Source of the DNA: a virus
Virus record (IMG/VR): IMGVR_UViG_3300034198_008044
Location: 1 to 27,978 of that record
Reading direction: 5' to 3' (one strand)
DNA length: 27,978 bases
Below the pieces are notes generated by a model. That model did no database searches and was not told the origin of the DNA. It was given only the letters and a program-made list of their open reading frames with translations. This document shows, piece after piece, positions 147-24,982 of this stretch. A program made the position numbers and the translations under genes. How positions within the stretch are numbered: the first letter of the stretch is position 1; each line of letters begins with the position of its first letter.

Positions 147-794
147 TCAAATACTATTTATGAAATTATTAAATAACTCTAGTTTTTTCCCTTCAAGTTG
201 ACGAGATTCTACTAGTTTGTTAATTTTCTTCTTGGTATCTTCAATAAGCCACTCATTTTTAGTCACATCATAATACCACTCTCTACCTTCCATAATACCT
301 TCTACGAATGCAGAAGTACAGGAAGGGTCGTGAACAATATCTGCAACGGTTGAGAACATTAGGTCATCGCCTACAATATTCACACCTTCATTAGTTGCTC
401 TTAAAGAACCAACGGCCCGTGAAGAAACACCAAAAACGACACCCTCATCGTGAAGGTTCTTTACAATGTTACCCATTGGGGTATTTGTAATAGATGCTCT
501 ACCATAAAAATCGTTGCCTTTTCTGGTAATAGATTCAATGATATGGGACACTCTATCATAGTTAATGGTTGGAGTTGCACTGTGACCAAGTTCTCCTACA
601 GCCCGTCTCTTATTAACGAAGTTTTCAATATAGAAGTTTACCGCATTATTGAGAACTTGAAATGGGTAAACTCTACCATTTCTATTTTTATTTTCTGCCT
701 GGCAAAATACCCCTTCAATATAGAGTTTTTTCTTACCGTTTACACTTTCGGTAAGCATCTTAACGTCTTGGGCTTCTTCAGTAAAAAGTTTCAT
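147..794 (-). CDS. 21: Prohead core protease, T4 gp21 family
   Basis: This is the 215-aa protease that cleaves the prohead scaffold and capsid proteins during T4-like head maturation. The N-terminal part (about residues 25-45, YIEGVFCQAENKNRNGRVYP) is the conserved gp21 block. GELGH (His71) and FGVSSRAVGSL (Ser124/125) are the expected His and Ser of this serine protease fold, followed by an acidic patch around DIVHDPS. A TTG codon directly precedes the ATG at 794; I chose the ATG because the protein then starts MKLFTEEA. No good Shine-Dalgarno sequence is visible, but a late-promoter motif AATAAATA lies 23 nt upstream. In T4 this gene follows 67/68 directly. Here it is separated from the gp67-like gene by about 21 kb. 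Confidence 0.93.
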   Translation of the reverse strand: MKLFTEEAQDVKMLTESVNGKKKLYIEGVFCQAENKNRNGRVYPFQVLNNAVNFYIENFVNKRRAVGELGHSATPTINYDRVSHIIESITRKGNDFYGRASITNTPMGNIVKNLHDEGVVFGVSSRAVGSLRATNEGVNIVGDDLMFSTVADIVHDPSCTSAFVEGIMEGREWYYDVTKNEWLIEDTKKKINKLVESRQLEGKKLELFNNFINSI

Positions 795-817
795 CAATTG
801 TGTCTATTAGTATGAAT

Positions 818-1837: not shown

Positions 1838-2818
1838 TTAAGAGTAACATAGTCCCTTACAAGTTTTCTGTGGAACAAAGGTATCTAGTGATTTCTTTGT
1901 ATTTTTCTCTATTCTTTCAATGATTTCTCTACAGGTGGTTTTAATTTCTTCTTCTGTGAATTTAACTCTTGGCTCATTTAGACGAGTTGCCAGCTGTGAA
2001 TCCATTCCACAGATTCTCATTGGAGACGGGTAAAATTGCACATCTCTTTCAATCATATGGAACACATCTGGATAAGAAATGTTAACCTTATGTGTTCCAG
2101 CAATAAAGACTGAAGCATCCTGATTTACCGCTCTTGCAATATGCTGACCGCAACTATCACAACCAATAAAATAGTCTGCTGCTTTTATGACTCCTGCCCA
2201 TTCTCTTAAGTTAGGGTCTGGCAATGGAATAAATGTCTTACCGTCATAAAAATCTTTTTCTCCCATAAAGATGATGTTATAATCTTTTGAAAGAATGGAT
2301 ACAATCTGCTCAAATGACTTATCGGAAAGAGAACGATAGGTTGGGTCAAAGACTCCCATAGGACAACGATTGGCGCTTCTACCGTATGGTTGAATCACGA
2401 TTGTTTTCGAATTCTTCTGTTGCTCTTTTGCCTGATAAACAACTTCGTGACCTTTTACAATCTCCAAATCTGATAGATTGAGAGTTAGTTCGGGTAGGTC
2501 TGAATGGTCGGTTGTATTATTGATTTCTCGGTCAAATGCTTCCATCAAAGAGATTTCCTGGCGATAATATGCGGGAATTTTATACGGTTCTGGAGTAATA
2601 ATATTTGTTGCATTCCAGTAATAGGTTTCAAAGGTTCCCTTTGTCTCTGGATTGAAAGTTCTTGTTTGAAGTTCTGGAATACCCCAGGTCATAAAGTCCC
2701 AACCGTGAACCATCACATACCATTTTTCACCTTGATGAAGTTGATGATATTTTAGTAGGGCAGGAATTGCAGTGATTGCCCTTCCTAGTCCACCGTCAAT
2801 GTTAATAATCGTGCTCAT
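1838..2818 (-). CDS. Glycosyltransferase family 9-like (heptosyltransferase-like)
   Basis: A 326-aa protein with two Rossmann-like halves typical of GT-B enzymes. The start, INIDGGLGRAITAIPALL, resembles the N-terminal G-x-G-D-x-x-x-x-x-P loop of GT9 and heptosyltransferase-like proteins. The second half carries QPYGRSANR and ADYFIGCDSCGQHIARAV, matching the family pattern of a 'D-S/T-G-x-x-H-x-A' donor-sugar site. It would transfer a sugar from an activated donor; the acceptor cannot be read from sequence. Its ATG overlaps the carbamoyltransferase stop (ATGA), which makes it the last gene of a coupled three-gene operon. Plausible roles are modification of host surface glycans or of virion proteins. 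Confidence 0.8.
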   Translation of the reverse strand: MSTIINIDGGLGRAITAIPALLKYHQLHQGEKWYVMVHGWDFMTWGIPELQTRTFNPETKGTFETYYWNATNIITPEPYKIPAYYRQEISLMEAFDREINNTTDHSDLPELTLNLSDLEIVKGHEVVYQAKEQQKNSKTIVIQPYGRSANRCPMGVFDPTYRSLSDKSFEQIVSILSKDYNIIFMGEKDFYDGKTFIPLPDPNLREWAGVIKAADYFIGCDSCGQHIARAVNQDASVFIAGTHKVNISYPDVFHMIERDVQFYPSPMRICGMDSQLATRLNEPRVKFTEEEIKTTCREIIERIEKNTKKSLDTFVPQKTCKGLCYS

Positions 2819-4533
2819 TGATATAGAACTCCAAGTGATTTTTTAATTTTTTGCTTTTGAACGATATAGTTTCCAATCACGAGATAGTCAATATCTAGAT
2901 TTAAAAATGACTCAACCGCGTGTTTTGGTGATTCAACGATAGGTTCACCATTATCATTGAATGATGTATTTAGAACCACAGGGATACCCGTTTTTTCTTT
3001 TAATTTTTGAAGTAAAAGGGTTGTTTGTGGATGCAATGATTTGCTGACGGTTTGAATTCTACAAGTATAATCAACGTGTGTAATTGCAGGAATTACGTGC
3101 GCCTTGTCTTCTTTTACGGTTAATGAATACAACATATAGGGAGACTTATAATCTTCATAAAAGTAATCATTGAGATGCTCTTCTAGAATGATACCGGCAA
3201 AAGGTCTCCAGTATTCTCTATGCTTCACTCTTGAATTAAGAATGTCCTTGTTTTCTTTTCGGGTTGGACTCATTAAGATAGAACGAGAACCAAGTGCTCT
3301 TGGGCCAAATTCAGAACGATTTTGAAACCAGGCGATGATTTTGTTTTGAGCAATATAATCGGCGGTTAGATAGCAGAGTTCTTCGAAGTCTTCATACTTT
3401 GTAAAAGTGACTTTATGTCGGGTAAGTTCTTTTTCTATTTCCCCGTTGGTGTATTCTTTACCTAGAAGTGCAATGTTTTCTGGAAGTTCAATTTTTTCTT
3501 TATTTTGAAATGCCCCAAAAAGAGCAGCACCATAATGAAGTCCGGTATCATTTGGACAAGAAGGAATGTGCATATTTTGCACGAGTTTATTGTTACGAAT
3601 GGAACTATTTCCGAGAACATTCAAAAATGACCCACCGGCAAGACATAGATTATCTTCAAGATAAGATTTAGCTTTGAGTTCACCGATATAATCAACAAGA
3701 GCAGTTTCAAAGTTCTTTTGCAGAATATATGCTTGCTCGTCTGCTGTTTTTAGAATGGAATGAGACTTGTAATCAAATACAACATAAGGAACCTCATTGT
3801 AATGAAGGTCTGATGAAAGTTGATATTCTTTATACTCCTCTTTGTATGGAAGATTCCCATAGGCGGAAAGACCCATTATCTTACCGTCCCAACTTTCTCT
3901 GTATTTCTCATCAAAAGCATCAATATGATTTCTGACTTTCTTGCAATAGATTTTGTGCGCCGCAGTATGATAATAAGACCCAAAATTATTGGTTCCAGAA
4001 ATACCATTGAAGAATCTAAAGATGCCATTTTCCTTATTGAAGTAACCAATTGAATTTGTTTCTGCTGCTAGAGAGTCTTCTTGATTATAAGAATAGATTA
4101 CAGAACCCGCACCATCCAATGTGATAAATGTTCCTTCGTTAAATTTTGATGAAAAAACTGCAGATGCGGCGTGAGATAGATGGTGAGAAATAATTTTAAA
4201 GACGGCATTGGGAAACAGTGATTTGATTTTTTTCTCAATGATTCCGTCTTTTAATTGACGATAAAAGTATTCCAGACACATTGATGGAATACAAATCAAA
4301 TTGACATCCTCTGCCGCGATATTGCCCTCTTGAAGACAGTATTCAATGGAGTTGATTGGGAAGTTACCATCATGTTTGATGCGGGTTAAACGCTCTTCAG
4401 AGATACTACAGATGTGTTTCCCATTGATTAAAAGTGTTACCCCAGCATCGTGAACCCACGTTAGATTTTGATGGTCATCGTATGATTGGTTTGCATCCCA
4501 ATCAACTGCACCATAAAGACCTAGGATGTTCAT
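2815..4533 (-). CDS. Carbamoyltransferase, NodU/CmcH (TobZ-like) family
   Basis: A 572-aa enzyme of the usual length for O-carbamoyltransferases that move carbamoyl from carbamoyl phosphate, via carbamoyl-AMP, to a hydroxyl of a sugar or antibiotic. The N-terminal Kae1-like domain shows VHDAG, SEERLTRIKHDG and ISHHLSHAASA (His117, 118, 121, metal ligands in this family), then LDGAGS and CLAGGSFLNVLGNS. The YrdC-like C-terminal domain has the hallmark EFGPRALGSRSIL (about 408-420) and later PVVLNTSFNDNGEPIV. It overlaps the upstream oxygenase and the downstream glycosyltransferase by ATGA, so all three are probably made together. The acceptor is unknown. Related genes occur in marine T4-like phages. 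Confidence 0.93.
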   Translation of the reverse strand: MNILGLYGAVDWDANQSYDDHQNLTWVHDAGVTLLINGKHICSISEERLTRIKHDGNFPINSIEYCLQEGNIAAEDVNLICIPSMCLEYFYRQLKDGIIEKKIKSLFPNAVFKIISHHLSHAASAVFSSKFNEGTFITLDGAGSVIYSYNQEDSLAAETNSIGYFNKENGIFRFFNGISGTNNFGSYYHTAAHKIYCKKVRNHIDAFDEKYRESWDGKIMGLSAYGNLPYKEEYKEYQLSSDLHYNEVPYVVFDYKSHSILKTADEQAYILQKNFETALVDYIGELKAKSYLEDNLCLAGGSFLNVLGNSSIRNNKLVQNMHIPSCPNDTGLHYGAALFGAFQNKEKIELPENIALLGKEYTNGEIEKELTRHKVTFTKYEDFEELCYLTADYIAQNKIIAWFQNRSEFGPRALGSRSILMSPTRKENKDILNSRVKHREYWRPFAGIILEEHLNDYFYEDYKSPYMLYSLTVKEDKAHVIPAITHVDYTCRIQTVSKSLHPQTTLLLQKLKEKTGIPVVLNTSFNDNGEPIVESPKHAVESFLNLDIDYLVIGNYIVQKQKIKKSLGVLYQ

Positions 4534-5141
4534 AGTGTTGGGAAATTCATTTTGCCCTTTGGAAGAGCAAGAATATTAAAAGAAATGGAGATTCGCTCTT
4601 CGTCGTGATTATTGGTTTCTACTGAATGTGGTAGATATGCTGGCCAAAGAAGAGCTGTTCCTTCTTGTGGTTCAATACGGAGCATATCACCTGTAAATTC
4701 GTTTTTGGTTTGAGTCAGCGCACAACCACTCCAAAGGCGATTCAGACCTGGATTAAAGACTACTAAACGACCACTTTCGGGTGGTGCAGAAAGATAGAAT
4801 ACACCAGAGAATGTTTGGTCGTGAATGTGCTCATTATTCATTGCCTGACGGGTATCATTAAAGTTTACCCAGGCAGAAGTTAGAAATACATCACACTCAA
4901 TAAAATTCAGGTCTTCTACTGCTTGAAGTGCCATTGAGCAGATAAACTCTAATAGTGGGCGAAGCTCTGGAACTCCTTGAAGTGTATCTGGAGAGTGATA
5001 ACCCGCAATATTTGATTTTGTAATGGACGGATTATTTTCTTTGAAAGCCCTTACTGCTTGAAGAAAGGCTTCCTTTTGCTCCTCAAAGTCGGGTAGTTCC
5101 GAACTCCAAAAAGGAGTTGAATAAATTGGCATCAATGTCAT
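4530..5141 (-). CDS. Putative 2OG-Fe(II) oxygenase
   Basis: A 203-aa protein of the phage and bacterial 2-oxoglutarate/Fe(II)-dependent oxygenase group. The core reads NNEHIHDQTFSGVFYLSAPP (His105, His107, Asp108), followed by GRLVVFNP, GTALLWPAYLPHSV (His172) and ERISISFNI (Arg183). This matches the family layout: first iron ligands, 'SGVYY' strand, distal His, then Arg binding 2-oxoglutarate. It would hydroxylate an unknown substrate. The ATG at 5141 lies 23 nt after a late-promoter motif in the stop of the reverse transcriptase gene. An alternative ATG is three codons further in. It is the first gene of a coupled operon with the carbamoyltransferase and GT9 genes, so a newly made hydroxyl might be the carbamoyl acceptor; this is inference. 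Confidence 0.88.
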   Translation of the reverse strand: MTLMPIYSTPFWSSELPDFEEQKEAFLQAVRAFKENNPSITKSNIAGYHSPDTLQGVPELRPLLEFICSMALQAVEDLNFIECDVFLTSAWVNFNDTRQAMNNEHIHDQTFSGVFYLSAPPESGRLVVFNPGLNRLWSGCALTQTKNEFTGDMLRIEPQEGTALLWPAYLPHSVETNNHDEERISISFNILALPKGKMNFPTL

Positions 5142-5164: not shown

Positions 5165-5173
5165 TTATTTAGG
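5165..5173 (-). promoter_or_regulatory. Late-promoter-like CCTAAATAA in the RT stop codon
   Basis: The last codons of the reverse transcriptase, CCT AAA TAA (Pro-Lys-stop), form CCTAAATAA, a T4-late-like octamer 23 nt before the oxygenase ATG. It would start the oxygenase-carbamoyltransferase-glycosyltransferase operon. Confidence 0.6.
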
Positions 5174-6214
5174 GATTAGTTTTGCGTAGTGAGACATCTT
5201 TAAATTGTTTTTAATTGCGATAGATTTTCTTAAATTATAACAATTCAAGTGAATCATCAATCCAAAATAAGAGTTTATTGATTTTGGATTAATTGCTAAT
5301 TTTGCTCTGTTTTTTGTCGCGTTTCGTATGTAAATTGAAAATGGTTTTATAATATAACCAACGTAATTTACACCATTTTCCAATTTGTTATGTTTTGTCT
5401 TTTTTGGATTCAATCTCATATTAAGTTTTAGAAGATAATCATTAATTATAGATAAAGTTGTCCGAATGGATTTTTCTTTTGGTAAGATAAAAATCAAATC
5501 ATCCATATAGCGAAAATAATAGTAAGTTATTTTGTTTTTACAGAACCAATCAAAATCATTTAGATAATTATTTGCGAAAAATTGTGAAGTTAAATTTCCA
5601 ATGGGAAGACCTGTTTCTTTATTTAACAATGATTTAGTTTCTGGAATTAAAAGTCTTAACTTTTCGTTGCCTTGGTAAATAAAATTTTTGGTTGGGTCTT
5701 GGCTAATGAATAGATTTAATAAATGAAGAGTTGTTAAATTGTCAATTTTAGGATAAAGTTGTGTTTTTACTATATCTTTATCAATTGAAACATAAAAGTT
5801 TGATATATCAACTTGAAGTACTCTATAATCGCTTCTCTGATGCCAAAGTTTTCTAAACGTCTTTTGAACATCTATTGCGGCCTTTAATGTTCCTCTTTGC
5901 TTTATACCGGCATATGTGGTTTGAATATAATCTTCTTCAATACATTTTATTCTATTGAAAAGTAGATGATGAACTATTCTATCTTTAAAACTTGCTGCCC
6001 AAACTTTTCTTGGTTTTGGTTTTAAAACAATAAAAAAGATATGAAATTCAGGAACATATTTTTCAGATTTTAATTCTAGGTAAAGTTCCCATAAATTATT
6101 TTCTAAATTAAATTCAAATTCAATTTGTTGATTACTATTTCTTTTTCTCTTTCTACACGAATAATATGCCGATAAAACTTCATCAAATGTGATGTCATTC
6201 GTAACTTTACACAC
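5165..6214 (-). CDS. DGR reverse transcriptase
   Basis: A 349-aa reverse transcriptase of the diversity-generating retroelement class. The catalytic aspartates are in LQVDISNFY (Asp136) and YFRYMDDLIF (Asp238/239; YMDD box). GLPIGNLTSQFFANNYLND (residues 202-220) contains the 'xGxxxSQ' form of RT motif 4 that typifies DGR and related group II-like RTs. NYVGYIIKP is a late RT motif. There is no maturase, endonuclease or integrase domain, and the length is normal for DGR RTs. The likely start is GTG at 6214, which lies inside the invariant 3' end of the template repeat; upstream the frame closes at a TAA (6235-6233), and no clear Shine-Dalgarno sequence is present. It lies downstream of target, avd and TR, the standard DGR order. 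It makes an adenine-mutated cDNA of TR. Confidence 0.96.
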   Translation of the reverse strand: MCKVTNDITFDEVLSAYYSCRKRKRNSNQQIEFEFNLENNLWELYLELKSEKYVPEFHIFFIVLKPKPRKVWAASFKDRIVHHLLFNRIKCIEEDYIQTTYAGIKQRGTLKAAIDVQKTFRKLWHQRSDYRVLQVDISNFYVSIDKDIVKTQLYPKIDNLTTLHLLNLFISQDPTKNFIYQGNEKLRLLIPETKSLLNKETGLPIGNLTSQFFANNYLNDFDWFCKNKITYYYFRYMDDLIFILPKEKSIRTTLSIINDYLLKLNMRLNPKKTKHNKLENGVNYVGYIIKPFSIYIRNATKNRAKLAINPKSINSYFGLMIHLNCYNLRKSIAIKNNLKMSHYAKLIPK

Positions 6215-6343
6215 CGGACGGAACGCACACAGTTAGTGTTGCTTTTGTTGTTGTTGTTGTTCTGGTTACCATTATTGAAGTTGACGTTACAAGCGTTGGA
6301 CGCATTGTTCTCGCTAGAACTCCAATAGTTCGTAGACGAACAA
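6209..6343 (-). repeat. DGR template repeat (TR)
   Basis: About 134 nt aligned with the variable repeat at 6870-7001. Read in the target's frame, the TR encodes C-S-S-T-N-Y-W-S-S-S-E-N-N-A-S-N-A-C, then a run of AAC/AAT (Asn) codons including five AAC in a row, then C-V-R-S-V-R-C. AAC is the typical DGR codon because mutating its two adenines samples many residues and no stop. Relative to TR, VR has 21 changes at adenines, two adjacent non-adenine changes near the 5' edge (the ACG codon), and lacks one AAC. The last 22 or so nt (TGTGTGCGTTCCGTCCGG and flanks) are identical and correspond to the IMH-type 3' end. The TR 3' end runs into the RT start codon. Confidence 0.97.
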
Positions 6344-6482
6344 ATTGATTTTCAATTACAAGTCTTTCTTTAGAAAAGAGTGTTTTGGTAAACATTTAGT
6401 TATTAAAAACTCTGAAAATCGTGTGGAAGGAGTCTCTGTTCAGTTGCTAGAACTGACCATTCTGCTCATTATGAATGACGAA
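6344..6482 (-). ncRNA. Putative 5' part of the DGR TR transcript
   Basis: This gap between avd and TR has no convincing gene. It begins directly after a late-promoter-like CTAAATAG and would form the leader of the TR RNA. Two short hairpins can be drawn: TCAGTT-CTAGC-AACTGA (6440-6456) and CATTC/GAATG (6458-6462 with 6473-6477). Only a 9-codon reading frame follows the promoter at the usual start distance. In studied DGRs the template is carried on a structured RNA spanning the avd end, TR and sequence downstream. The RNA call is inference from layout and these hairpins. Confidence 0.45.
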
Positions 6483-6490
6483 CTATTTAG
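6483..6490 (-). promoter_or_regulatory. Late-promoter-like CTAAATAG in the avd stop, ahead of TR
   Basis: The end of avd, ACT AAA TAG (Thr-Lys-stop), contains CTAAATAG. Unlike the other copies in this window it is followed by no substantial gene at 20-30 nt but by the TR about 140 nt on, so it could start a TR/RT transcript separate from the target and avd message. Confidence 0.5.
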
Positions 6491-6818
6491 TTGACCTCAA
6501 CCAACCTGATGCCTGTTTAACGCACGGTTGACTTACTTCAATAAAAGGAGAAAATTGTTTTTCGGTAACGATATTAATATCTTTGCTCATTCTTACTAAA
6601 AAACATAAAAAATCTAGACTAGAAACTAATTCATCTAAATCCTGCCTCTTGTCTTTATGTCTTGCTGCACGGTAGAGCAAAGCAGCACAATCTAAACAAA
6701 CATTTTGAATTCTTGTTCCTAAAGTGAATTTGTATTCTCTAGGAAAATTTTTAACTATTATAAAAACTCTTTTATTTAATTCCGAAATATCTCTGTAGAT
6801 TTGCAAACTTTCAATCAT
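6483..6818 (-). CDS. avd: DGR accessory variability protein, Avd-like
   Basis: A 111-aa, mostly helical, basic protein of the Avd / four-helix-bundle (S23-like) family, which binds the DGR RT and RNA and is needed for mutagenic homing. Family features are KNFPREYKFTLGTRIQNV (about residues 22-39), LLYRAARHKDKR, LDFLCFLVRMSKDINIVTEKQF and the C-terminal GWLRS. I place the start at the ATG at 6818, because GGAG lies 8 nt upstream of it and the protein then begins MIESLQIYRD as in family members; an in-frame ATG eight codons earlier lacks such a site. It lies between the target gene and TR, the usual place. The stop codon overlaps a late-promoter-like motif. Confidence 0.92.
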   Translation of the reverse strand: MIESLQIYRDISELNKRVFIIVKNFPREYKFTLGTRIQNVCLDCAALLYRAARHKDKRQDLDELVSSLDFLCFLVRMSKDINIVTEKQFSPFIEVSQPCVKQASGWLRSTK

Positions 6819-6859
6819 TTTAAAAACTCCAGCAAAATACAAATTTCAAAATTCAAAAT

Positions 6860-7357
6860 TCAAAGAAAAACACACCGGACGGAACGCACACAGAAAGGGC
6901 AGCTTTTGTTGCGGCAGTCCAGGCAACCACTAAGGAAGTTGACGCCACAAGCGTTGGACGCATTGATCTCGCTAGAACTCCAATAGACGATAGACGAACA
7001 AGTATCCCAAAAAGCGCGACAACAATATGCAGTAACCAATAAATCTTGACATGGTATAAACCAGTCGCAGGGATTAAAACCGCAACAAATCAAACGGTTA
7101 CACGTATTGGGCCAATTGGAAATGCAACACAGTGAGTTCCCCCCGCCAACAATTAAAGTGTTATTCCAACACCCACTTGCCCATTGGTCGCTTATTTGAG
7201 TAGAAGCGGGGGCAACAATCCACGCTTGTCCACCCGCACGACGATAAACCGCTGAACCGTCGCCCAAAATGGTCCCCAAAGGACAGATACGAGCATAATA
7301 ATCTGCCGCTTCTTTTGATCTTAACCACCAAGTTGTTGGTCCGATTACTACTGACAT
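6860..7357 (-). CDS. DGR target protein with DUF1566/C-type-lectin-like variable domain
   Basis: A 165-aa presumed virion protein whose C-terminal end is the DGR variable repeat. The stem of the domain reads AGGQAWIVAPAST, CDWFIPCQDL and SSIVYWSSSEINA, and ends NKSCPFCVRSVRCVFL; the YWSS(S/T)E ... V-x-F ... VR-x-VR frame is typical of DUF1566/lectin-type DGR targets. Variable positions lie between YWSSSE and CVRSVR and would form the ligand face. Eighteen of 165 residues are cysteine, with three CC pairs; three of the cysteines arose by Asn-to-Cys change relative to TR. No signal peptide or membrane segment is seen. A strong AAGGAG lies 7 nt before the ATG, and only 11 nt separate it from the upstream fibre gene, which suggests it is a fibre-tip adhesin. 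Confidence 0.93.
   Translation of the reverse strand: MSVVIGPTTWWLRSKEAADYYARICPLGTILGDGSAVYRRAGGQAWIVAPASTQISDQWASGCWNNTLIVGGGNSLCCISNWPNTCNRLICCGFNPCDWFIPCQDLLVTAYCCRAFWDTCSSIVYWSSSEINASNACGVNFLSGCLDCRNKSCPFCVRSVRCVFL
6870..7001 (-). repeat. DGR variable repeat (VR)
   Basis: About 131 nt, the copy of TR (6209-6343) at the 3' end of the target gene, ending four codons before the stop. Differences from TR include Asn to Ile, Gly, Leu, Ser, Cys, Asp, Arg and Phe, Gln to Leu and Thr to Pro, all from adenine changes. One AAC of the five-codon tract is missing, keeping the frame. Sequence just downstream is an AT-rich set of direct repeats (GAATTTTGAATTTTGAAA on the minus strand, about 6843-6862) before the avd start. 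Confidence 0.97.
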
Positions 7358-7368
7358 TTTTATTCTCC

Positions 7369-9291
7369 TTAGGGAACTAGTGCTATGATTCCGGTTCTTA
7401 CTAAACCGTCTGTTCCTCTTACTCTTACTGTAAGAGTGTTGTTGTTTGTAAGTTCAAAGCTCATTGTTCTATTTATTGTCGGTGCCGATGTTGCTTCTAA
7501 ACCAAACGTTGTAATACCCGTAATTGTGGCATTACCTTGAACGTGAAGAGTTGATGTAGGAACTGATGTTCCAACCCCAACATTACCATTTCTGTTAACT
7601 TCAAAAATTGCAGTAATAGTTGAGCCTATAGATAAGTTAGTGGTAGAACCAAATCCAACAACTGGGCTATTTACGCTAAAAAGACTACCAGAGACATTAT
7701 TAGTAAGACTTAAAATCTGGTCAGGTATGCGCGTAGTGCTTGCGGTTCCAGTATAAAAGTTAAGAGAACCTGTATCTCCAGTTGTAGGCGATACTATAAT
7801 ATGGTTTGTGGTTGGTGAGTTTGATAAATCACTAAATGGCTGCCTCGGTCTAATCAGACCAAAGATTGTTACATCCCCATTAATTCTTTGTGGTGATACT
7901 GCTAGGACATTAAACGGCGTGGTAATGGCAGTATGTGCAACCCCTAAAATAACACTACCTCTTACATCAAGTTTTGCACGAATTGATGTACCTATACCGA
8001 CAATAGTATTACCTGCTCTGTCTATCCTAAATGATTGTTCTATAAATTCTGTGGGTGGGGATGCGCCAGCTTCTATAAAAGAATATGGTTTTGGAGTATA
8101 CTTTGAAACTACGAATAAATCGTCAGCAAAGTCATCATTTAAGGTTAAAATTTGATTACCATAGCCATTAAAAACTAAAGTTCCATTATCTCTTGCATAT
8201 GCCTTTATTTCTACTGCATTAGTGTTTGCTACACCAGAATAATTAAATTGAGTAGCAATTCCAATAAAAGTTAAAGATGGTCTAGCACTTGTTGATGTTC
8301 CAATTCCAGAACCTGCCGAGAGTCTTATATTACCAAACAGATCAAGTTTAGTTATCGGGGTTGTTGTTCCGATACCCAAGTTACCGCTGGAAGGGACATA
8401 TACAAATGTAGAGCTTGCTAAAATTGACGAGGTGACCCCAGAACTGGTGGACGAAAAATTAATAAATTGTGGAATAGATGCACTGGATAGCCCCACCGTG
8501 TTTGGAATTAATCCTGTTAAATTACTGCCATCTCCATAATAAGTTACATTTCCTGAAGTAGCGGTAATAATACCTGCAGAGATTTTAACTAATCCTAGAG
8601 TAGAAATACCAGATACACTCAAAGATGTTACAGATCCAATACCGCCTATTACGTTTGTTGAAATGCCGGAATTTACTGCATATGTTGCAGCATTTGCGTT
8701 TCCAGTTAAATTTCCAACAAAACTAGTTGCCGTTATTATTCCTGCTGTAATATTGGGAGTTCCAGTGAGGCCCCGAGCAACCGTTGAGATGCCTGCCGTT
8801 TGAGCATAGTTCGCAGAGGCTGCACTATTTGCAAACCCCGCATTTGTTGCATACGTTATCGTTCCTACAATACCACCGGCGGTAATGCCAGTTAATTCTG
8901 AACCATCCCCCACGAACTTAGTGGCAGTAACAATGCCTCCTGAAATTTGAGCGCCACTAATAGTTGAAGGGCCGGTCACATTTAAGGACGTTACATTGGC
9001 AATTCCTCCGATTACGTTATTTGCAGTGCCAGAATTTAATGCATAGGATATTATACCAACAATGCTACTCGCGGTAATGCCAGTTAATTCTGAACCATCC
9101 CCCACGAACTTAGTTGCAGTAACAATACCTCCCAAAATTTGAGTGCTCTTAAATGTATTAGCAGTAAGATTTGTTACAGATGTAACTCCCAAATTTGTTC
9201 TACCAATTACATCTAATACTAGATTAGATTCAGTATAACTGCTTACACCAATTTTTAAACTAAGTTCTCTTCCGCTAAGATAGTCCGACAT
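7369..9291 (-). CDS. Repeat-rich tail fibre protein
   Basis: A 640-aa fibre. The N-terminal third is built of repeats of the type GGIVTATKFVGDGSELTGIT and VIGGI..VTSLNVTGPS, found in cyanophage tail fibres as trimeric beta-structured shafts. The middle and C-terminal parts have the GIGTTTPITKLDLFGN / GVGTSVPTSTLHVQGN pattern of a second type of fibre repeat, ending in a beta-rich tail (VRVRGTDGLVRTGIIALVP). No chaperone or enzymatic domain is visible. At the DNA level, 8641-8811 and 8890-9015 are near-identical to parts of the 1666-aa fibre gene. The start ATG at 9291 lies just past the stop of the upstream gene. The DGR target follows after 11 nt, probably on the same message, so this fibre is a good candidate for its physical partner. 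Confidence 0.9.
   Translation of the reverse strand: MSDYLSGRELSLKIGVSSYTESNLVLDVIGRTNLGVTSVTNLTANTFKSTQILGGIVTATKFVGDGSELTGITASSIVGIISYALNSGTANNVIGGIANVTSLNVTGPSTISGAQISGGIVTATKFVGDGSELTGITAGGIVGTITYATNAGFANSAASANYAQTAGISTVARGLTGTPNITAGIITATSFVGNLTGNANAATYAVNSGISTNVIGGIGSVTSLSVSGISTLGLVKISAGIITATSGNVTYYGDGSNLTGLIPNTVGLSSASIPQFINFSSTSSGVTSSILASSTFVYVPSSGNLGIGTTTPITKLDLFGNIRLSAGSGIGTSTSARPSLTFIGIATQFNYSGVANTNAVEIKAYARDNGTLVFNGYGNQILTLNDDFADDLFVVSKYTPKPYSFIEAGASPPTEFIEQSFRIDRAGNTIVGIGTSIRAKLDVRGSVILGVAHTAITTPFNVLAVSPQRINGDVTIFGLIRPRQPFSDLSNSPTTNHIIVSPTTGDTGSLNFYTGTASTTRIPDQILSLTNNVSGSLFSVNSPVVGFGSTTNLSIGSTITAIFEVNRNGNVGVGTSVPTSTLHVQGNATITGITTFGLEATSAPTINRTMSFELTNNNTLTVRVRGTDGLVRTGIIALVP
8641..8811 (-). 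repeat. Fibre module A, copy 1
   Basis: Near-identical to 19119-19289 in the 1666-aa fibre gene (constant offset of 10478). It encodes the segment with TAGISTV..GLTGTPNITAG and ITATSFVGNLTGN. The low number of differences, many of them silent, suggests recent copying or recombination between the two fibre genes. Confidence 0.85.
8890..9015 (-). repeat. Fibre module B, copies 1 and 1'
   Basis: This segment, coding for VTSLNVTGPSTISGAQISGG and GDGSEL, is near-identical to 19007-19130 in the 1666-aa fibre gene. A further partial copy lies at 9070-9150 in the same gene. Order relative to module A is reversed compared with the large fibre gene. Confidence 0.8.
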
Positions 9292-10023: not shown

Positions 10024-13000
10024 TTAGTCGCCGCCTAGAGCTAGAATAAATGGAGTTAGAGTTGAGAAAAGACTCTTCGTATAAGATGAACCCGAAACTG
10101 TACCGGTGTTTTGATTTACAATTACACCGTCGCCAATTCTAAAGTTACCAGATTGGTCTGTACTCGTATAAACAACGAGACCTCCATTTTTAGACACAGT
10201 TTCATTTTCTTGAATTGGTAGACCGCCAAGCCAAGGAAGGGCGTTATCAATATAATCTCCTGCACCTATGTATTGGAAAGAATGGCCAGAGGCAAGAATA
10301 CGACTTTGTTTGTAGAATGGAACTTCGGTTCCGATGCCAATAAATGCTGGAACGTTTTCATTGAAAAATACTCGGTATTTATCGTTTCCAATTGGCTCAG
10401 CCTTTGCAACAGAATAATATGTTGGTCTAATTGATGCAATAAGTCTTGCAGTATTGAATCCGACGCTTGGACCCTCTATCGTAATTCTTGGGACTCTAGT
10501 ATAACCGCGACCTGAAGACACAATTTCAATAGTGGAAACTGAGCCATTTGAAATTTCCGCCACCGCTTGTGCTGCAACTCCCCAGGGTGAATCTGGGTCT
10601 TCAATTGTAATGTTTGGTGCAAAAGTATAGCCAGTTCCGCCAGCTCCAACGGTAATGGTATCAATGTCATAAGTGAGGTCGCCAAAATAAACAACTTGGC
10701 CATCAAAAGGTCTAATTGTGCTACATTTTGTAATACCCCCTGAGTTATAATAATGTTTCTGCGTTGCGATACCAACATTGATGCTGAATACTGTGCTAGC
10801 GAGAGAAACATTTGGAAGTGAATTTAGATTACCGTTACCTAAATTGACAGTTAAAATGCCAGCAAGATTGTCAATAGTTGTAAGAACGTTTGCACAGGAA
10901 TTTGGACTTGTATTAAATCCGGTTAATGGGTCTGGAGCTAGTGCATAATTCTTGTTGTTTAATTGGTTATTGACTGCAAGTTTGATATAATCTCTTGCTG
11001 CCATAAATGCTGTAATAGATTCAGATACTTCTCCAACAAGACCATTAGAAATAGGAGAACCATTTCTATTGAAATAAAATTTAGTGGACCTAATGATTTC
11101 CTTATTGGTATAGTTTATTAGGTCTGAAGCAATTGCATCTACAATATAACCAATGTCTCTTGCACATTTTGAACCCCCTTCCGCAAACCCTCCTAGATTT
11201 TCATTTGGAAGTGCATTGAGAACACCAGCACCTAGAACGGTTGTAACAATACCAACCAGATTGTTAATATTTGATTGCACATCAAAACAAGCTCCAAAGT
11301 CAGAATTTGGAACGGTGGAACCAATGCCATTATAAATTGTAGTACCAACTGATACCGTTGAATCTTTGTTGTTAAGGTTATTTGTAATCGCCTGGCGCAT
11401 CAAACCACCAGCCGTCATAAATGCCTGAATGGACTCGGCCTCTTCACCAACTAGACCATTTACAATAGGTTGACCTGAATTATTAAAGTATTGTAATGTG
11501 AACCCTCTTGCATACTTGTTACCCCCGGTAAATACGTCGGTAGAAATGGCGTCCACAAAATAACCTAAATCTCTATAGCACTTTGAACCACCAGTCGTAA
11601 ATGTTCCAACATTAACGCTCGGTAAACTCACTAGACTCCCTGCCCCAATAACAGTTGTAATAATTCCAACAAGATTGTCAACGTTTGAGCGGACATCTGC
11701 ACAGGCATTTGGATTGGTATTGGGAATACTTACACCAGCCCCGGCATAGGATGAGGGGCCAGTAGAAACCGTTAAATCCTTGACAGGCAGATTATTGGTG
11801 ATAGCAAGTTTTACTAGTTCTCTTGCCTCTTGAAAGGCAAAAATAGATTGAGTTTCTTCGCCAACTAGACCATTGGAGATTGGAATACCCATACCATTAA
11901 AATATTGTTTGACAAACTCTCTTGAATAGTTGTTTCCGCCCGTGAATACATCTGTTGAAACTGCGTCTACAAAATATCCCAAATCTCTTTTGCACTTAGA
12001 TATGGTTGTAGAAATGCCAGGATATTGAATGAGAGCATTATTCCAGGCTGTGTTTACAATTTCTGTTTTATTTTGTTGAATTAATCTATATGCATCATAA
12101 TACCGAGAACGACTGTTAGTTTGAGAATCTCCGGGGAAATAAAAATCTGGATTAAAAATGGCAATAGATGCAAGTGACTTCTCTACAATTTCTCGCTTGT
12201 TCTGTTGAATGAGCCTATAAGCGTCATAATACCGAGAACGTGAATTAGTTTGAGAGTCAAATGGAAAATAAAAGTCGGGATGATTAATGGCAATAGAAGC
12301 AAGAGATTTATCTACAATCTCTCGCTTATTAAGTTTAATCATATTAGACGCATCGATGAAGCGTCCAGGTGCAACAGTTTTTACTTCAAAAGTATATCCT
12401 TTACTCCCGCTAGGATAAGTTAGAATTCCAGCGGATGTGGGGCAAGTGAAACCTAAACCAGAAATTGTAACTGACATTCCCACATTAAACCTGTGGGGCG
12501 CACTTGTGTAAATAGTTGTAATACCTGAAACATTATCATAAAGAGCATTAACAACATTAAATGTCGGTGTAGATAAATCAATATCAAATCTATCGCTATC
12601 AGCTCCAGCTGTTGCAGTAACGATGCCAAGAAACTTCATATGGCTGACACCATCAGCAATCATACCATAGGTGCCAAATGAAGAGTTAGAGTTTGTAAGG
12701 TCACAGGCACCACCAGAACCACAGTAAATTGCAATATTATCGCAAATTGTAAAGATTGATACCAACTGAGCATAAGCACTATTGGTAATAGAAACTCCAA
12801 TACCACCTTGATTATACTGTGTATAAGAGTCAACTACCATACTCTTAAGTGGTCCAATTACAATGTCGCCATCAATTTGCATTCCAATACTCCCCGGAAT
12901 GAAGTTGGTGCAGTTTCTCACATAAGGTGACTGATTAATATAACGCTGCTCTACTGGGTCAAATGAGAAGATTGCCTTTCCTGGCATAGTGCCATAAAAA

Positions 13001-13446
13001 GATACATTTTCAAACTCATTACCAGAACCCCAATAGAATAAATCTTTGTCTGGATTTAATGGTTGAATGCTGACTTCTCTAAGGTTCGTTCCCGTAAAAC
13101 TTACTTGGTCAGGAACCGTGATGGGATTGTCTTCAAAGTACGTTCCGGGGGAGATTTCAATAGTAGTTTCAGCTTTTGAAATAGAAACTGCTGCTTTGAT
13201 TGTTGCCTTTGCATCGCCTAATCGTAAGCCGGTATTTGTATCTTTTCCGTCCTTTGTCACATAAACAGTATTTCTTACCGAAGAACCTACTGATACACTT
13301 ACAATATCAGTACCAATTCCTGGCCTCTCGCGCTTAATATAAAGTTCTGCATCATAGGTGTTTAGGGCAAGCTGACCCAACTCTAGACTGGTGGGCTTTC
13401 TTCCTCGAACTGACGAACGCTTAATGCGAATACGTGGGGTGGCCAT
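10024..13446 (-). CDS. Large cyanophage-type tail fibre / beta-helix virion protein
   Basis: An 1140-aa structural protein. The start (RIRIKRSSVRGRKPTSLELG, then GQLALNTYDAELYIKRERPG) is the attachment-type N-terminus I know from T4-like cyanophage fibres. Residues of about 60-300 (VYVTKDGKDTNTGLRLGDAK, then ISPGTYFEDNPITVP) look like a right-handed beta-helix of pectate-lyase type. Next come two exact-length 43-aa repeats and a partial third (NKREIV.KSLASIAI ... YYDAYRLIQQ), then three units of about 138 aa starting SKC.RDLGYFVDA.STDVFTGG. The C-terminal part (ITVGAGGTGYTFAPNITIED, GRGYTRVPRITIEG) is a beta-rich region with two related units. A late-promoter motif AATAAATA lies 25 nt before the ATG. 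Confidence 0.9.
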   Translation of the reverse strand: MATPRIRIKRSSVRGRKPTSLELGQLALNTYDAELYIKRERPGIGTDIVSVSVGSSVRNTVYVTKDGKDTNTGLRLGDAKATIKAAVSISKAETTIEISPGTYFEDNPITVPDQVSFTGTNLREVSIQPLNPDKDLFYWGSGNEFENVSFYGTMPGKAIFSFDPVEQRYINQSPYVRNCTNFIPGSIGMQIDGDIVIGPLKSMVVDSYTQYNQGGIGVSITNSAYAQLVSIFTICDNIAIYCGSGGACDLTNSNSSFGTYGMIADGVSHMKFLGIVTATAGADSDRFDIDLSTPTFNVVNALYDNVSGITTIYTSAPHRFNVGMSVTISGLGFTCPTSAGILTYPSGSKGYTFEVKTVAPGRFIDASNMIKLNKREIVDKSLASIAINHPDFYFPFDSQTNSRSRYYDAYRLIQQNKREIVEKSLASIAIFNPDFYFPGDSQTNSRSRYYDAYRLIQQNKTEIVNTAWNNALIQYPGISTTISKCKRDLGYFVDAVSTDVFTGGNNYSREFVKQYFNGMGIPISNGLVGEETQSIFAFQEARELVKLAITNNLPVKDLTVSTGPSSYAGAGVSIPNTNPNACADVRSNVDNLVGIITTVIGAGSLVSLPSVNVGTFTTGGSKCYRDLGYFVDAISTDVFTGGNKYARGFTLQYFNNSGQPIVNGLVGEEAESIQAFMTAGGLMRQAITNNLNNKDSTVSVGTTIYNGIGSTVPNSDFGACFDVQSNINNLVGIVTTVLGAGVLNALPNENLGGFAEGGSKCARDIGYIVDAIASDLINYTNKEIIRSTKFYFNRNGSPISNGLVGEVSESITAFMAARDYIKLAVNNQLNNKNYALAPDPLTGFNTSPNSCANVLTTIDNLAGILTVNLGNGNLNSLPNVSLASTVFSINVGIATQKHYYNSGGITKCSTIRPFDGQVVYFGDLTYDIDTITVGAGGTGYTFAPNITIEDPDSPWGVAAQAVAEISNGSVSTIEIVSSGRGYTRVPRITIEGPSVGFNTARLIASIRPTYYSVAKAEPIGNDKYRVFFNENVPAFIGIGTEVPFYKQSRILASGHSFQYIGAGDYIDNALPWLGGLPIQENETVSKNGGLVVYTSTDQSGNFRIGDGVIVNQNTGTVSGSSYTKSLFSTLTPFILALGGD
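10755..12000 (-). repeat. Three internal repeats of about 138 aa
   Basis: Units starting near 12000, 11590 and 11170 each begin with S-K-C-x-R-D-(L/I)-G-Y-(F/I)-V-D-A, continue with NGLVGE.. and an AITNNL..KD segment, and end N-L-V-G-I-(I/V)-T-T-V-(I/L)-G-A-G or similar. They are clear at protein level and moderately diverged in DNA, as in an old tandem duplication within a fibre shaft. Confidence 0.85.
12061..12332 (-). repeat. Tandem 129-nt repeat in the 1140-aa fibre gene
   Basis: Two full units and part of a third with a period of 129 nt (units begin near 12061, 12190 and 12319 on the plus strand). Each encodes 43 residues ending SRSRYYDAYRLIQQ. The protein is almost unchanged between units while many third positions differ, which points to selection on the protein rather than very recent duplication. 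Confidence 0.85.
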
Positions 13447-22146: not shown

Positions 22147-22155
22147 CTATTTAGA
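22147..22155 (-). promoter_or_regulatory. Late-promoter-like TCTAAATAG in the gp20 stop
   Basis: The gp20 ending ATC TAA overlaps TCTAAATAG, 21 nt before the gp67-like ATG. It fits the T4 late octamer except for the first bases. Confidence 0.6.
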
Positions 22156-24322
22156 TTTCCCCGCCCTTAGGCATTTTGGGTTCTTTGGGCTTAATATCCG
22201 GTTCTACGGGAACTTTACCAGATTGACCTTTTATGTTGTTACCTGCACTAGAGGCTGCTGTAGGGCTCTGTGGAGCGGCTGCAGTGCCTTCTGGTGGGAC
22301 CATACCCACTTCTATGGGTAAACCCGTTTGTGGATCAACTGGTGCATTGGGATCAGGGATAATGCCATCTTCAATCTCCTTTGCCATAATTTCATCTTGT
22401 TCAATAATTTCCTCATCGGTTTGACGAAGAATCTTACGACGAAGATAATCTTGTGAGAAATAGCGCCCAACATAAGGTTCTGCCATAGATGCCATATTGA
22501 GCCTCTCTGTAAAGAGTTCAGATTCTTTGAGTTCAGCAAAGTGATTGTCATATAGGAAGTCAAACTGAATATGTTCAACCATTTTCTTCCAGTCTTCTGG
22601 TGTTACAATATTTTTCAGAAGAAGTTGTGTTCTTAGGAGGTCAATAAAAAGTTGCGAAAAGCGTTTGCGAAGTCCCCCCACAAATTTTGTAAACTTCACT
22701 TCATCTCTGAGGATTTCAGTTGATCGGCCGAGGTTGAATCCACTATCCCCACCAATGCGGGTTTCTGGTACATTTAACGATTTGTATAGATTGCGTTTGA
22801 AGTAATCCAAATCCGTTAATTCACCAAGATTGCTATTTTTGGTATAAACACCACAAGAAAGGGCAAAAGTGTGATAGTTATGGATAGATTCATCTGAATC
22901 AATGGTTAGGGTGCCAACTTCAATTTCATCGGTTAGATATTCAATAGCTAAAACGCAAATAACTGACTCTTTTTGACGAGAAATCATACTTTGGCCAACA
23001 ACTAGGTCTTTGGCCTCAACAAAACCGAGGTCATAAATTGGGAACTTGTGGTCATAAGTGCAGACAAGACTTTCACCATTATCAAGAGTAATTTTCATCA
23101 CCTTTGCACTCTTTTGAGTTACACCAGCCCAAGAAATCAAACCGGGCGCAAACACACCAGTTGAAGGGTGACACGAGTAAGTCCAAAGTTGTTTACCATC
23201 TTTCATTTCAGCCTCAATCTCTGAAATTGTTAATTCCCTTCCATCCAGTAGAGACACTTTTGTATCCATTGCTAGACAGCCCGCCGGAAGCGTGGTAACT
23301 TCAGTACCACGACCACCTTCTCTACGGGGGAACCAAAAGTCTTCCATAAGACTCATAAACTTACGAGAAGTATCTACCTCGCCAGTGAGGCTATTGTAGT
23401 TCATCTTATTACGATACTTCATCATCTGTTCACGAAGGAACTGCTCAGCCTTCGGTTTCGGTAGATTACCTACATCAATATAGAAGATTCTTTTTTCTGA
23501 ACTCCTGCTAAGGCGATAAATGACTACGCTATCCTCAATCATTCTAAGTTGATTGAGAATCTTGATTGCTTTATTGAGATATGATAGCGATGTGCCTTTA
23601 TTTCTATCAACAAGACCGGATGTGCAATATGCAATTGATTCTTTTGTAAATTTTATTCCCTTTTCTGCACCAGCAGACATATCTGCTGCACCCACTGGGT
23701 ATGTTTGCTTGGGGCTATAAACAAAATATTCCTCAAGTTCAGGAAAAACCTGTTCATTAGGCCCCTGGTCGCCATACATTTTTGGGCCAAGGATATCTCG
23801 TTTCTGTTTTTTCGCTTGCCTAACATAGCGAATTTTCATAGCATCCACATACCGAATATCTTGAATACCGGCGTGTGGATCTTTAATGTCAATTAATTTG
23901 TGATAATAAAGCCGCCCATCAATATACCAGTTTCGGAAAATTTCGTGGGCTTTTCTGTCAAAATCAAGCATTTCAAGAATTGCCTTAAATTCTTGACGAA
24001 TTGCATTTTTAATTCCATCGCTTGCATTAAGGTTAGAAAGTTCAATCTCAATTGGGGAATCATTTGTGTCAGTTACGATTGCCTCGTTTACAATATCAGC
24101 AATGGCGCTATCAACTTCGTGATGGAGTGCCATTTCCCGATACCGCTTGATTAAATCAAACTCTGTTCTATAGACACCTTCAACGTCAACATAAGAACCA
24201 AAAAAACCGGTTGTCAAATAATGGTCTGAGCCATCATCATTATTAGGAGGAACCGGCGAAATGATATTCTTGGATAACTTTTTATTGTTATCCTCAATAG
24301 AAAATCCAAATAACTTAGCCAT
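22151..24322 (-). CDS. 20: Portal vertex protein, T4 gp20 family, with intein
   Basis: A 723-aa precursor of the dodecameric portal through which DNA enters the head. The gp20 landmarks are GFFGSYVDVEGVYRTEFDLI, YREMALHHEVDSAIADIVNE, IYRLSRSSEKRIFYIDVGNL and TEVTTLPAG. The last is directly followed by a 148-residue intein and then SNLGELTDLDYFKRNLYKSL, the natural continuation. Without the intein the protein is 575 aa, in the range of cyanophage gp20. The C-terminus is rich in Pro, Gly and Lys. The start is the ATG at 24322 (MAKLFGFSIED); the TTG directly before it is less likely. A late promoter is 23 nt upstream, and it follows gp19 as in T4. Confidence 0.96.
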   Translation of the reverse strand: MAKLFGFSIEDNNKKLSKNIISPVPPNNDDGSDHYLTTGFFGSYVDVEGVYRTEFDLIKRYREMALHHEVDSAIADIVNEAIVTDTNDSPIEIELSNLNASDGIKNAIRQEFKAILEMLDFDRKAHEIFRNWYIDGRLYYHKLIDIKDPHAGIQDIRYVDAMKIRYVRQAKKQKRDILGPKMYGDQGPNEQVFPELEEYFVYSPKQTYPVGAADMSAGAEKGIKFTKESIAYCTSGLVDRNKGTSLSYLNKAIKILNQLRMIEDSVVIYRLSRSSEKRIFYIDVGNLPKPKAEQFLREQMMKYRNKMNYNSLTGEVDTSRKFMSLMEDFWFPRREGGRGTEVTTLPAGCLAMDTKVSLLDGRELTISEIEAEMKDGKQLWTYSCHPSTGVFAPGLISWAGVTQKSAKVMKITLDNGESLVCTYDHKFPIYDLGFVEAKDLVVGQSMISRQKESVICVLAIEYLTDEIEVGTLTIDSDESIHNYHTFALSCGVYTKNSNLGELTDLDYFKRNLYKSLNVPETRIGGDSGFNLGRSTEILRDEVKFTKFVGGLRKRFSQLFIDLLRTQLLLKNIVTPEDWKKMVEHIQFDFLYDNHFAELKESELFTERLNMASMAEPYVGRYFSQDYLRRKILRQTDEEIIEQDEIMAKEIEDGIIPDPNAPVDPQTGLPIEVGMVPPEGTAAAPQSPTAASSAGNNIKGQSGKVPVEPDIKPKEPKMPKGGEI
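22835..23278 (-). mobile_element. Mini-intein in the gp20 portal protein
   Basis: A 148-residue in-frame insert between LPAG and SNLGE. Block A is CLAMDTKVSLLDGRELTI, with Cys1 as the splice nucleophile. Block B is GESLVCTYDHKFPI with the T-x-x-H motif (TYDH). The end reads NYHTFALSCGVYTKN, with the terminal Asn and then Ser as +1 residue. The penultimate residue is Lys rather than the usual His, which some inteins tolerate. There is no room for a homing endonuclease, so this is a splicing-only mini-intein. Self-excision would restore the conserved TLPAG-SNLGE portal segment. Splicing activity itself is inferred. Confidence 0.93.
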
Positions 24323-24345
24323 CAATAAAGTTTATCTTTGTTTGA

Positions 24346-24355: not shown

Positions 24356-24982
24356 TTAAGAAATTGGAGCGTTTACTTGGTCGGTAATACCGTTAGCATT
24401 TCCAGCGGTCCAATGTGTCATTTGGAACTCTACGGTAAAGTTTTGAATCTGATCGGTTGAATCCCAGTTGAGATCAATAGTGCTGACGTTGGTTGGCCAA
24501 ATGTTGTGAATTACATATGTGCGAAGGGGGCTCACCGTACCACCATTTTGTAAATTTGAAATGGTTGAGGATTCTTTACCGGTATCGTAACCGCGACCAA
24601 ATTGTTGGGCATATGCAACTGCGGCCATATATGAATCTGGACGGGTTACACCTGTACCAGTCTCCATACGATTGATCGCATTAGACCAGGCTTCAAAGGC
24701 AGTACGAATCTTAAAGTTTTCATCGTTGATGACAGTAATGGTCCAGGGATCATAGGTTCTATCGCCTGCAACTTTTAGAATGCGGCCTCTAAAATTTACG
24801 TCTACTGGCGATACGTTTGCGGCTGGAATTGCTGCACCTTTACATAAAAATGTAAATGTATCATTGTCCCATCCCGGAACAATAGAAGGAAATGCGGGAA
24901 TGCTAACTTCAAATAGATTTGCGCGGGCGCCGCCGCCAGCTAGTTTTGATTTGAAGCCAGTGATTGTTTTTAGTGATGCCAT
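24356..24982 (-). CDS. 19: Tail tube protein, T4 gp19 family
   Basis: A 208-aa major tail tube subunit that stacks in hexameric rings as the inner channel of the contractile tail. The sequence ANLFEVSIPAF, FLCKGAAIPAANVSPVDVNF, GRILKVAGDRTYDPWTITVI and the C-terminal TVEFQMTHW follow the gp19 / contractile tail-tube pattern, and the length is normal. It lies directly between sheath (gp18) and portal (gp20), as in T4. GGAGG lies 13 nt before the ATG. No late-promoter octamer was seen in the gp18-gp19 gap, so it is probably co-transcribed with gp18. Confidence 0.95.
   Translation of the reverse strand: MASLKTITGFKSKLAGGGARANLFEVSIPAFPSIVPGWDNDTFTFLCKGAAIPAANVSPVDVNFRGRILKVAGDRTYDPWTITVINDENFKIRTAFEAWSNAINRMETGTGVTRPDSYMAAVAYAQQFGRGYDTGKESSTISNLQNGGTVSPLRTYVIHNIWPTNVSTIDLNWDSTDQIQNFTVEFQMTHWTAGNANGITDQVNAPIS

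Follow-up and report, generated by a model that had tools for sequence, protein, structure and literature searches.

A candidate diversity-generating retroelement among the virion genes of a T4-like, cyanophage-like virus

The metagenomic viral contig IMGVR_UViG_3300034198_008044 (27,978 nt, examined over its whole length and called the window in the following) carries on its minus strand, between positions 5165 and 7357, a target gene, an Avd gene, a template repeat (TR), and a reverse transcriptase (RT) gene, in the canonical order of a diversity-generating retroelement (DGR). The original prediction of a complete DGR, with all parts on one strand in this order, is upheld, each part having been found where it had been placed. 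A DGR-type RT, an adenine-biased pair of TR and variable repeat (VR), a lectin-like target gene ending in the VR, and Avd are all present, and judged by its sequence the element is a DGR, i.e. a known kind of system. We consider it very likely that it represents the complete DGR of a T4-like cyanophage, in which RT and Avd would rewrite the VR of a target that would most probably serve as a receptor-binding tip or as a decoration. What makes it worth reporting is this T4-like cyanophage setting, a related locus with several targets (in the phage G002, below), and the apparent repeated losses among its relatives.

The RT (5165..6214, minus strand; 349 residues from a GTG start at 6214) matches PHROG 1423 (RT, 1.2e-74), contains the motifs YMDD and GLPIGNLTSQ, and finds its best match among solved structures in Brt of BPP-1 (PDB 8ub7, 5e-25). 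For the DGR-type RT that had been claimed, a position outside the DGR clade had been named as the refutation; in the tree, the RT lies inside this clade, grouping with BPP-1 and other DGR RTs (support 98/99), and a group II intron RT, RT-Cas1, and two plasmid RTs fall apart from it. Avd, an accessory protein of most DGRs (here 6483..6818, minus strand; 111 residues from ATG, in an ORF open from 6842), is recognized by three libraries, in line with the Avd-like protein that had been proposed: Pfam bAvd (8.7e-16), PHROG Avd of DGR (2.7e-19), and NCBIfam DivGenRetAVD (4.5e-15, which is below its cut-off). The reading frames of RT, Avd, and target are all open, and the motifs are intact. There is no spacer between TR and RT, as the GTG at 6214 is already part of the TR match, within its final 6 nt; TR and RT are packed equally closely in the two uncultivated phages G002 and G011, and in phages Magia and QDWS. 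General RT profiles, including those for group II intron and DRT, also match the protein (the NCBIfam ones all below their curated cut-offs), as they might if the RT belonged to another class and the repeats were ordinary paralogous segments; given the DGR-clade placement, the adjacent Avd, and adenine-only differences in three separate loci, the probability of this is negligible, and both the tree and the neighboring parts speak against the retron, group II, and defense RT classes, which were rejected.

The TR (6209..6343, minus strand) is a direct repeat of the VR, rich in AAC and AAT codons when read in the VR frame; the VR (6870..7001, minus strand, delimited by alignment to the TR) forms the 3' end of the target gene, stopping 10 nt short of the end of its ORF. 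The pairing of a C-terminal VR with this TR, as originally claimed, is borne out by differences that fall almost only on TR adenines: in the core, from TATTGG to GTGTGT, 19 of 38 adenines are changed but none of the 78 other bases (p = 1e-11), and over the whole match 21/41 adenines against 2/91 other bases (Fisher p = 4e-11). The many AAY codons that the TR has in this frame yield no stops through changes at A; one AAA could become a stop. The final 24 nt of the VR (6870..6893, minus strand) are identical to the 3' end of the TR and form an IMH-like direct repeat, exact copies of which are found, among other viral contigs, only in the related genome G001, in two places; near this end in G002 and G011, the TR has A where the VR has T or C. 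In BPP-1, IMH and IMH* differ, whereas the two 24-nt ends in the window offer no sequence difference that would set the direction of transfer. The TR also contains one AAC codon more than the VR (window 6235-6275), possibly through template slippage or a recent TR expansion; because this codon is missing both here and from the VR of the same gene in G001, the last rewriting of the VR may date from before the TR acquired it.

No inverted repeat or cruciform was found after the VR (folding z = +0.74), where BPP-1 has a stem-loop; this feature is neither required in DGRs nor universal among them. RNA folding of the TR region is unremarkable (z -1.35), and Rfam gave no match near the TR. An ORF of 62 aa across the TR (6207-6395) was rejected as a gene, having no family match. 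Just upstream of the VR, and outside TR coverage, window positions 7013-7116 show dense differences between the target genes of the window and G001, many of them affecting whole codons, while over the 200 bases that follow they hardly differ; this raises the question of an older, longer TR, or of recombination between paralogues.

In the mechanism that we propose, a transcript through the TR would be reverse-transcribed by the RT together with Avd, with the RT misincorporating at template adenines; the cDNA would then take the place of the VR in the target gene, with the 24-nt IMH-like end common to both repeats as its starting point. The AAY codons of the TR would allow about 16 residues at most of a C-type-lectin-like domain (within residues 124-155) to be changed in this way at almost no risk of a stop, and the protein carrying them would most likely be the receptor-binding tip or a decoration of the neighboring tail fiber. 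By analogy with BPP-1, we infer an RNA intermediate, the joint action of RT and Avd, retrohoming, receptor binding, and activity to the present; what the sequences display directly are the products of such a process.

The target gene (6860..7357, minus strand) encodes a Cys-rich, Lcl_C/DUF1566-like protein of 165 residues with the VR at the C-terminal end of a predicted C-type-lectin-like fold. The comparison to DUF1566 and C-type-lectin models that had been suggested as a check comes out in favor of this assignment: the protein matches the Pfam Lcl_C profile at 2.5e-4, which is below the cut-off, and its predicted structure matches the C-terminal domain of Legionella Lcl. AlphaFold gave an unusable model from three sequences (pLDDT 40), and one with pLDDT 80 and pTM 0.75 from 15 members of the target family (156-174 aa in length). 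The sole PDB match of this model below 0.001 is the Lcl domain (8q4e; E 3e-5, TM 0.55/0.67), with C-type-lectin-like domains as the weaker ones; among viral models, a Peptidase S74 protein ranks first, and the name DUF1566 is borne by several of the others. Variability in the family peaks at the residues with AAN codons in the TR (2.49 vs 0.99 bits, p = 2e-6). Profile searches extended the family to roughly a dozen additional viral contigs; among 50,697 phage records, none was found at the sensitivity used. The target has 18 Cys in its 165 residues, several of them at VR positions (TGC from AAC), a content uncommon among phage proteins that fold in the cytoplasm.

Because of the lectin-like fold and the adjacent fiber gene, binding to the host surface is the most likely use that we infer for the target. 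The DGR could also be genuine and its target have no part in receptor choice, its ligand being matrix, the sugars of a capsule, or another surface of phage or cell, or its place of action the inside of the cell. This is unlikely, but carries appreciable weight: the protein is small and stands alone, with no fiber domain of its own; there are up to three copies in relatives, and some VR-bearing copies in G001 are far from this tail region; and the Lcl fold is an adhesin domain in Legionella. Receptor binding is nevertheless favored by the fiber gene, which lies directly upstream both in the window and in several relatives, and by the best viral structural match, which is in a protein with a Peptidase S74 domain, as commonly found in tail spikes and fibers.

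The ORFs of the window are nearly all on the minus strand and, in the direction of transcription, lead from the end of a terminase gene through tail sheath (25023-27188), tail tube (24356-24982), portal protein (22151..24325, T4 gene 20 type; PHROG 213, 5e-201), and structural and fiber genes to a large tail fiber protein (10024..13446; PHROG 17885 tail fiber, 3.6e-182), a tail-fiber-like gene (7369..9291; weak PHROG baseplate/tail matches), the DGR, a 2OG-Fe(II) oxygenase (4530-5141), a NodU-like carbamoyltransferase (2815-4533), and a head maturation protease (147..797, T4 gene 21 type; PHROG 207, 2.2e-66); portal, both fiber genes, and protease are on the minus strand. Portal protein and head maturation protease form the upstream and downstream borders of the module, which places the DGR in the interval from a T4 gene 20-type to a T4 gene 21-type gene. 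This is the setting that the original prediction had described: the T4-type head and tail genes are there, with portal, sheath, tube, and prohead protease all matched on the contig; the gene directly before the target is indeed tail-fiber-like, and its homologs adjoin targets in the related contigs G004, G005, and G010; and the cyanophage-like T4 relative is recovered in the T4-type genes and in the sheath, for which the closest isolate is Synechococcus phage B23 (Kyanoviridae, 243,633 bp; 64.5%). The sequence comparisons support a T4-like, cyanophage-like virus, the host of which would, judged from its relatives only, be a cyanobacterium. In the sea and in fresh water, Synechococcus and Prochlorococcus have T4-like cyanophages among their major predators, and a DGR in the virion gene region of these phages would provide a concrete, testable source of rapid variation in a surface protein.

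Intact homologous RTs are found in two more uncultivated phages, G002 and G011, at 64% and 59% identity to the window RT, respectively; the three form a separate clade (support 100/100). G002 (IMGVR_UViG_3300032294_003113), which has T4-type hub-lysozyme, tube, and helicase-loader genes, carries RT, Avd, TR, and three targets, with one VR about 5.5 kb from the TR. Relative to this single TR, the three VRs are changed at 15, 20, and 18 of 41 adenines, and each at 0/93 non-adenines; all changes (53/53) are at template adenines, as is every difference between one VR and another. This pattern suggests that one TR has written three targets, and is the nearest proxy for VR variation within a population. 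In G011, which has an intact RT, TR and VR differ at 13/36 adenines and 0/81 other bases. Single-sequence RT searches of viral and bacterial contigs yielded no usable relatives; a genome scan with a profile of the three RTs yielded RTs from bacterial genomes at 28-41% identity, in 35 loci. These comparisons place the window cassette in a small DGR family that has no cultured representative so far. The closest full-length relative of the RT in a bacterial genome (L090, 6001-7065; 40%) is in a MAG of the Gastranaerophilales, a sister group of the cyanobacteria, on a contig that is perhaps phage.

The best-known counterpart of the cassette, in the Bordetella phage BPP-1 (mtd, avd, TR, brt), has the same gene order, an Avd, a TR/VR pair with the VR at the end of the target gene, and a location beside a tail fiber gene; its target, Mtd, also has a C-type-lectin-like fold. 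It differs in that 144 nt separate TR and brt, where the TR of the window runs into the RT start; in that Brt is only about 29% identical to the window RT over 245 residues; in that the target is Mtd, where the window has a small Lcl_C protein; and in that BPP-1 is a 42-kb temperate phage. The nearest characterized RTs are those of Magia, QDWS, Cruim01, and Haboob (37-40% identity to the window RT), from which the three cyanophage RTs of the window, G002, and G011 stand apart as the clade described above. Magia and QDWS share the order target(s)-Avd-TR-RT, with the TR directly abutting the RT, and have two VRs; their cassettes are, however, located near integrase genes in phages of about 45-48 kb, whereas that of the window is embedded among T4-like virion genes. 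Cyanobacterial DGRs (PMC7517822), among them one on an Acaryochloris plasmid, likewise have CLec variable proteins and remote targets under one TR, but they are cellular, with mostly cytosolic targets, and the Acaryochloris RT is only 33% identical to that of the window; cyanophages go unmentioned in that paper. Two-target DGRs of gut phages (tentaclins, PMC10743442) also combine one phage DGR with more than one lectin-like target; there, the targets differ in architecture, whereas those of the cyanophage family are paralogues of one small protein.

Phage DGR clades have come mainly from gut phages, and detection of DGRs in the open ocean is rare (PMC8144416), although some of the contigs described here may already be contained in that survey. 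In the search of 94 phage records with an RT match, no cyanophage name is found among the matches listed. We found no literature pairing DGRs with Kyanoviridae in open-access sources, whose coverage is incomplete, and the titles and abstracts retrieved for DGRs together with cyanophages, Synechococcus, or T4-like phages report no such cassette.

Other relatives retain targets and appear to have lost part or all of the core. The genome of G001 (IMGVR_UViG_3300042560_001323; 243,166 bp), which aligns with the window at roughly 85-90%, is probably complete, since its 467-bp ends are identical. The target is still found where the window has it, but RT and TR are absent and Avd is a frame-shifted remnant, half of it lost. 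A second VR is found at 238.9 kb (16/38 adenines and 2/78 non-adenines changed relative to the window TR), in a gene that looks frame-shifted upstream; a copy at 241.5 kb is doubtful as a VR (12/36 and 10/77), and a paralogue at 44.9 kb was rejected as a current one (21/40 adenines, but 27/78 non-adenines). Near the remote targets, there is a tandem array of repeats of about 20 nt (L002, 6258-6617), and repeats of 12 nt are found at the contig ends. Window positions 6673-6895, comprising the Avd remnant and the target end at 169.9-170.2 kb in G001, are about 99% identical between the two, with one substitution and small indels, while the flanks differ by about 10-20%; this suggests a recent exchange of the module. 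In G005, a single ORF begins as Avd and finishes as RT, and G013 has a remnant of Avd containing stops. In G005 and G004, both without RT, most differences between the two main targets (17/22 and 15/20, respectively) fall on columns that are A in the G002 TR. The G005 targets (L051, 4493-4999 and 8137-8607) have different N-termini and a long identical middle stretch, as if by gene conversion.

Our reading is that related phages have repeatedly lost the DGR core and retained its targets, with the qualification that the contigs other than G001 are fragments, so that an RT may lie elsewhere in these genomes. Losses of this kind (RT, TR, and half of Avd in G001, the Avd-RT fusion scar in G005, the Avd remnant in G013), and the codon by which the window VR falls short of its TR, would also be expected if the window cassette, though complete, were silent or nearly so, its VR the record of past activity in an element heading for loss. 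We judge this improbable, as RT, Avd, and target frames are open with their motifs intact, and as the identity of TR and VR at non-adenines in the core (0/78) would decay if rewriting had ceased. Very improbable, in our estimate, is an arrangement in which a co-infecting relative supplies the RT and TR that rewrite, in trans, the targets of phages without RT, as a mutator shared between phages, with T4-like cyanophages holding a lineage-specific DGR whose core is repeatedly lost. The intact, scarred, and target-only relatives provide a natural comparison of DGR cost and benefit within one group.

Downstream of the DGR, window positions 1838-5141 contain the 2OG-Fe(II) oxygenase, the NodU-like carbamoyltransferase, and a phrog_8954 protein with a weak GT9 match; homologs of these genes border the targets in most relatives, with an additional sulfotransferase in G002, and together they resemble an island for sugar modification that is linked to the targets.
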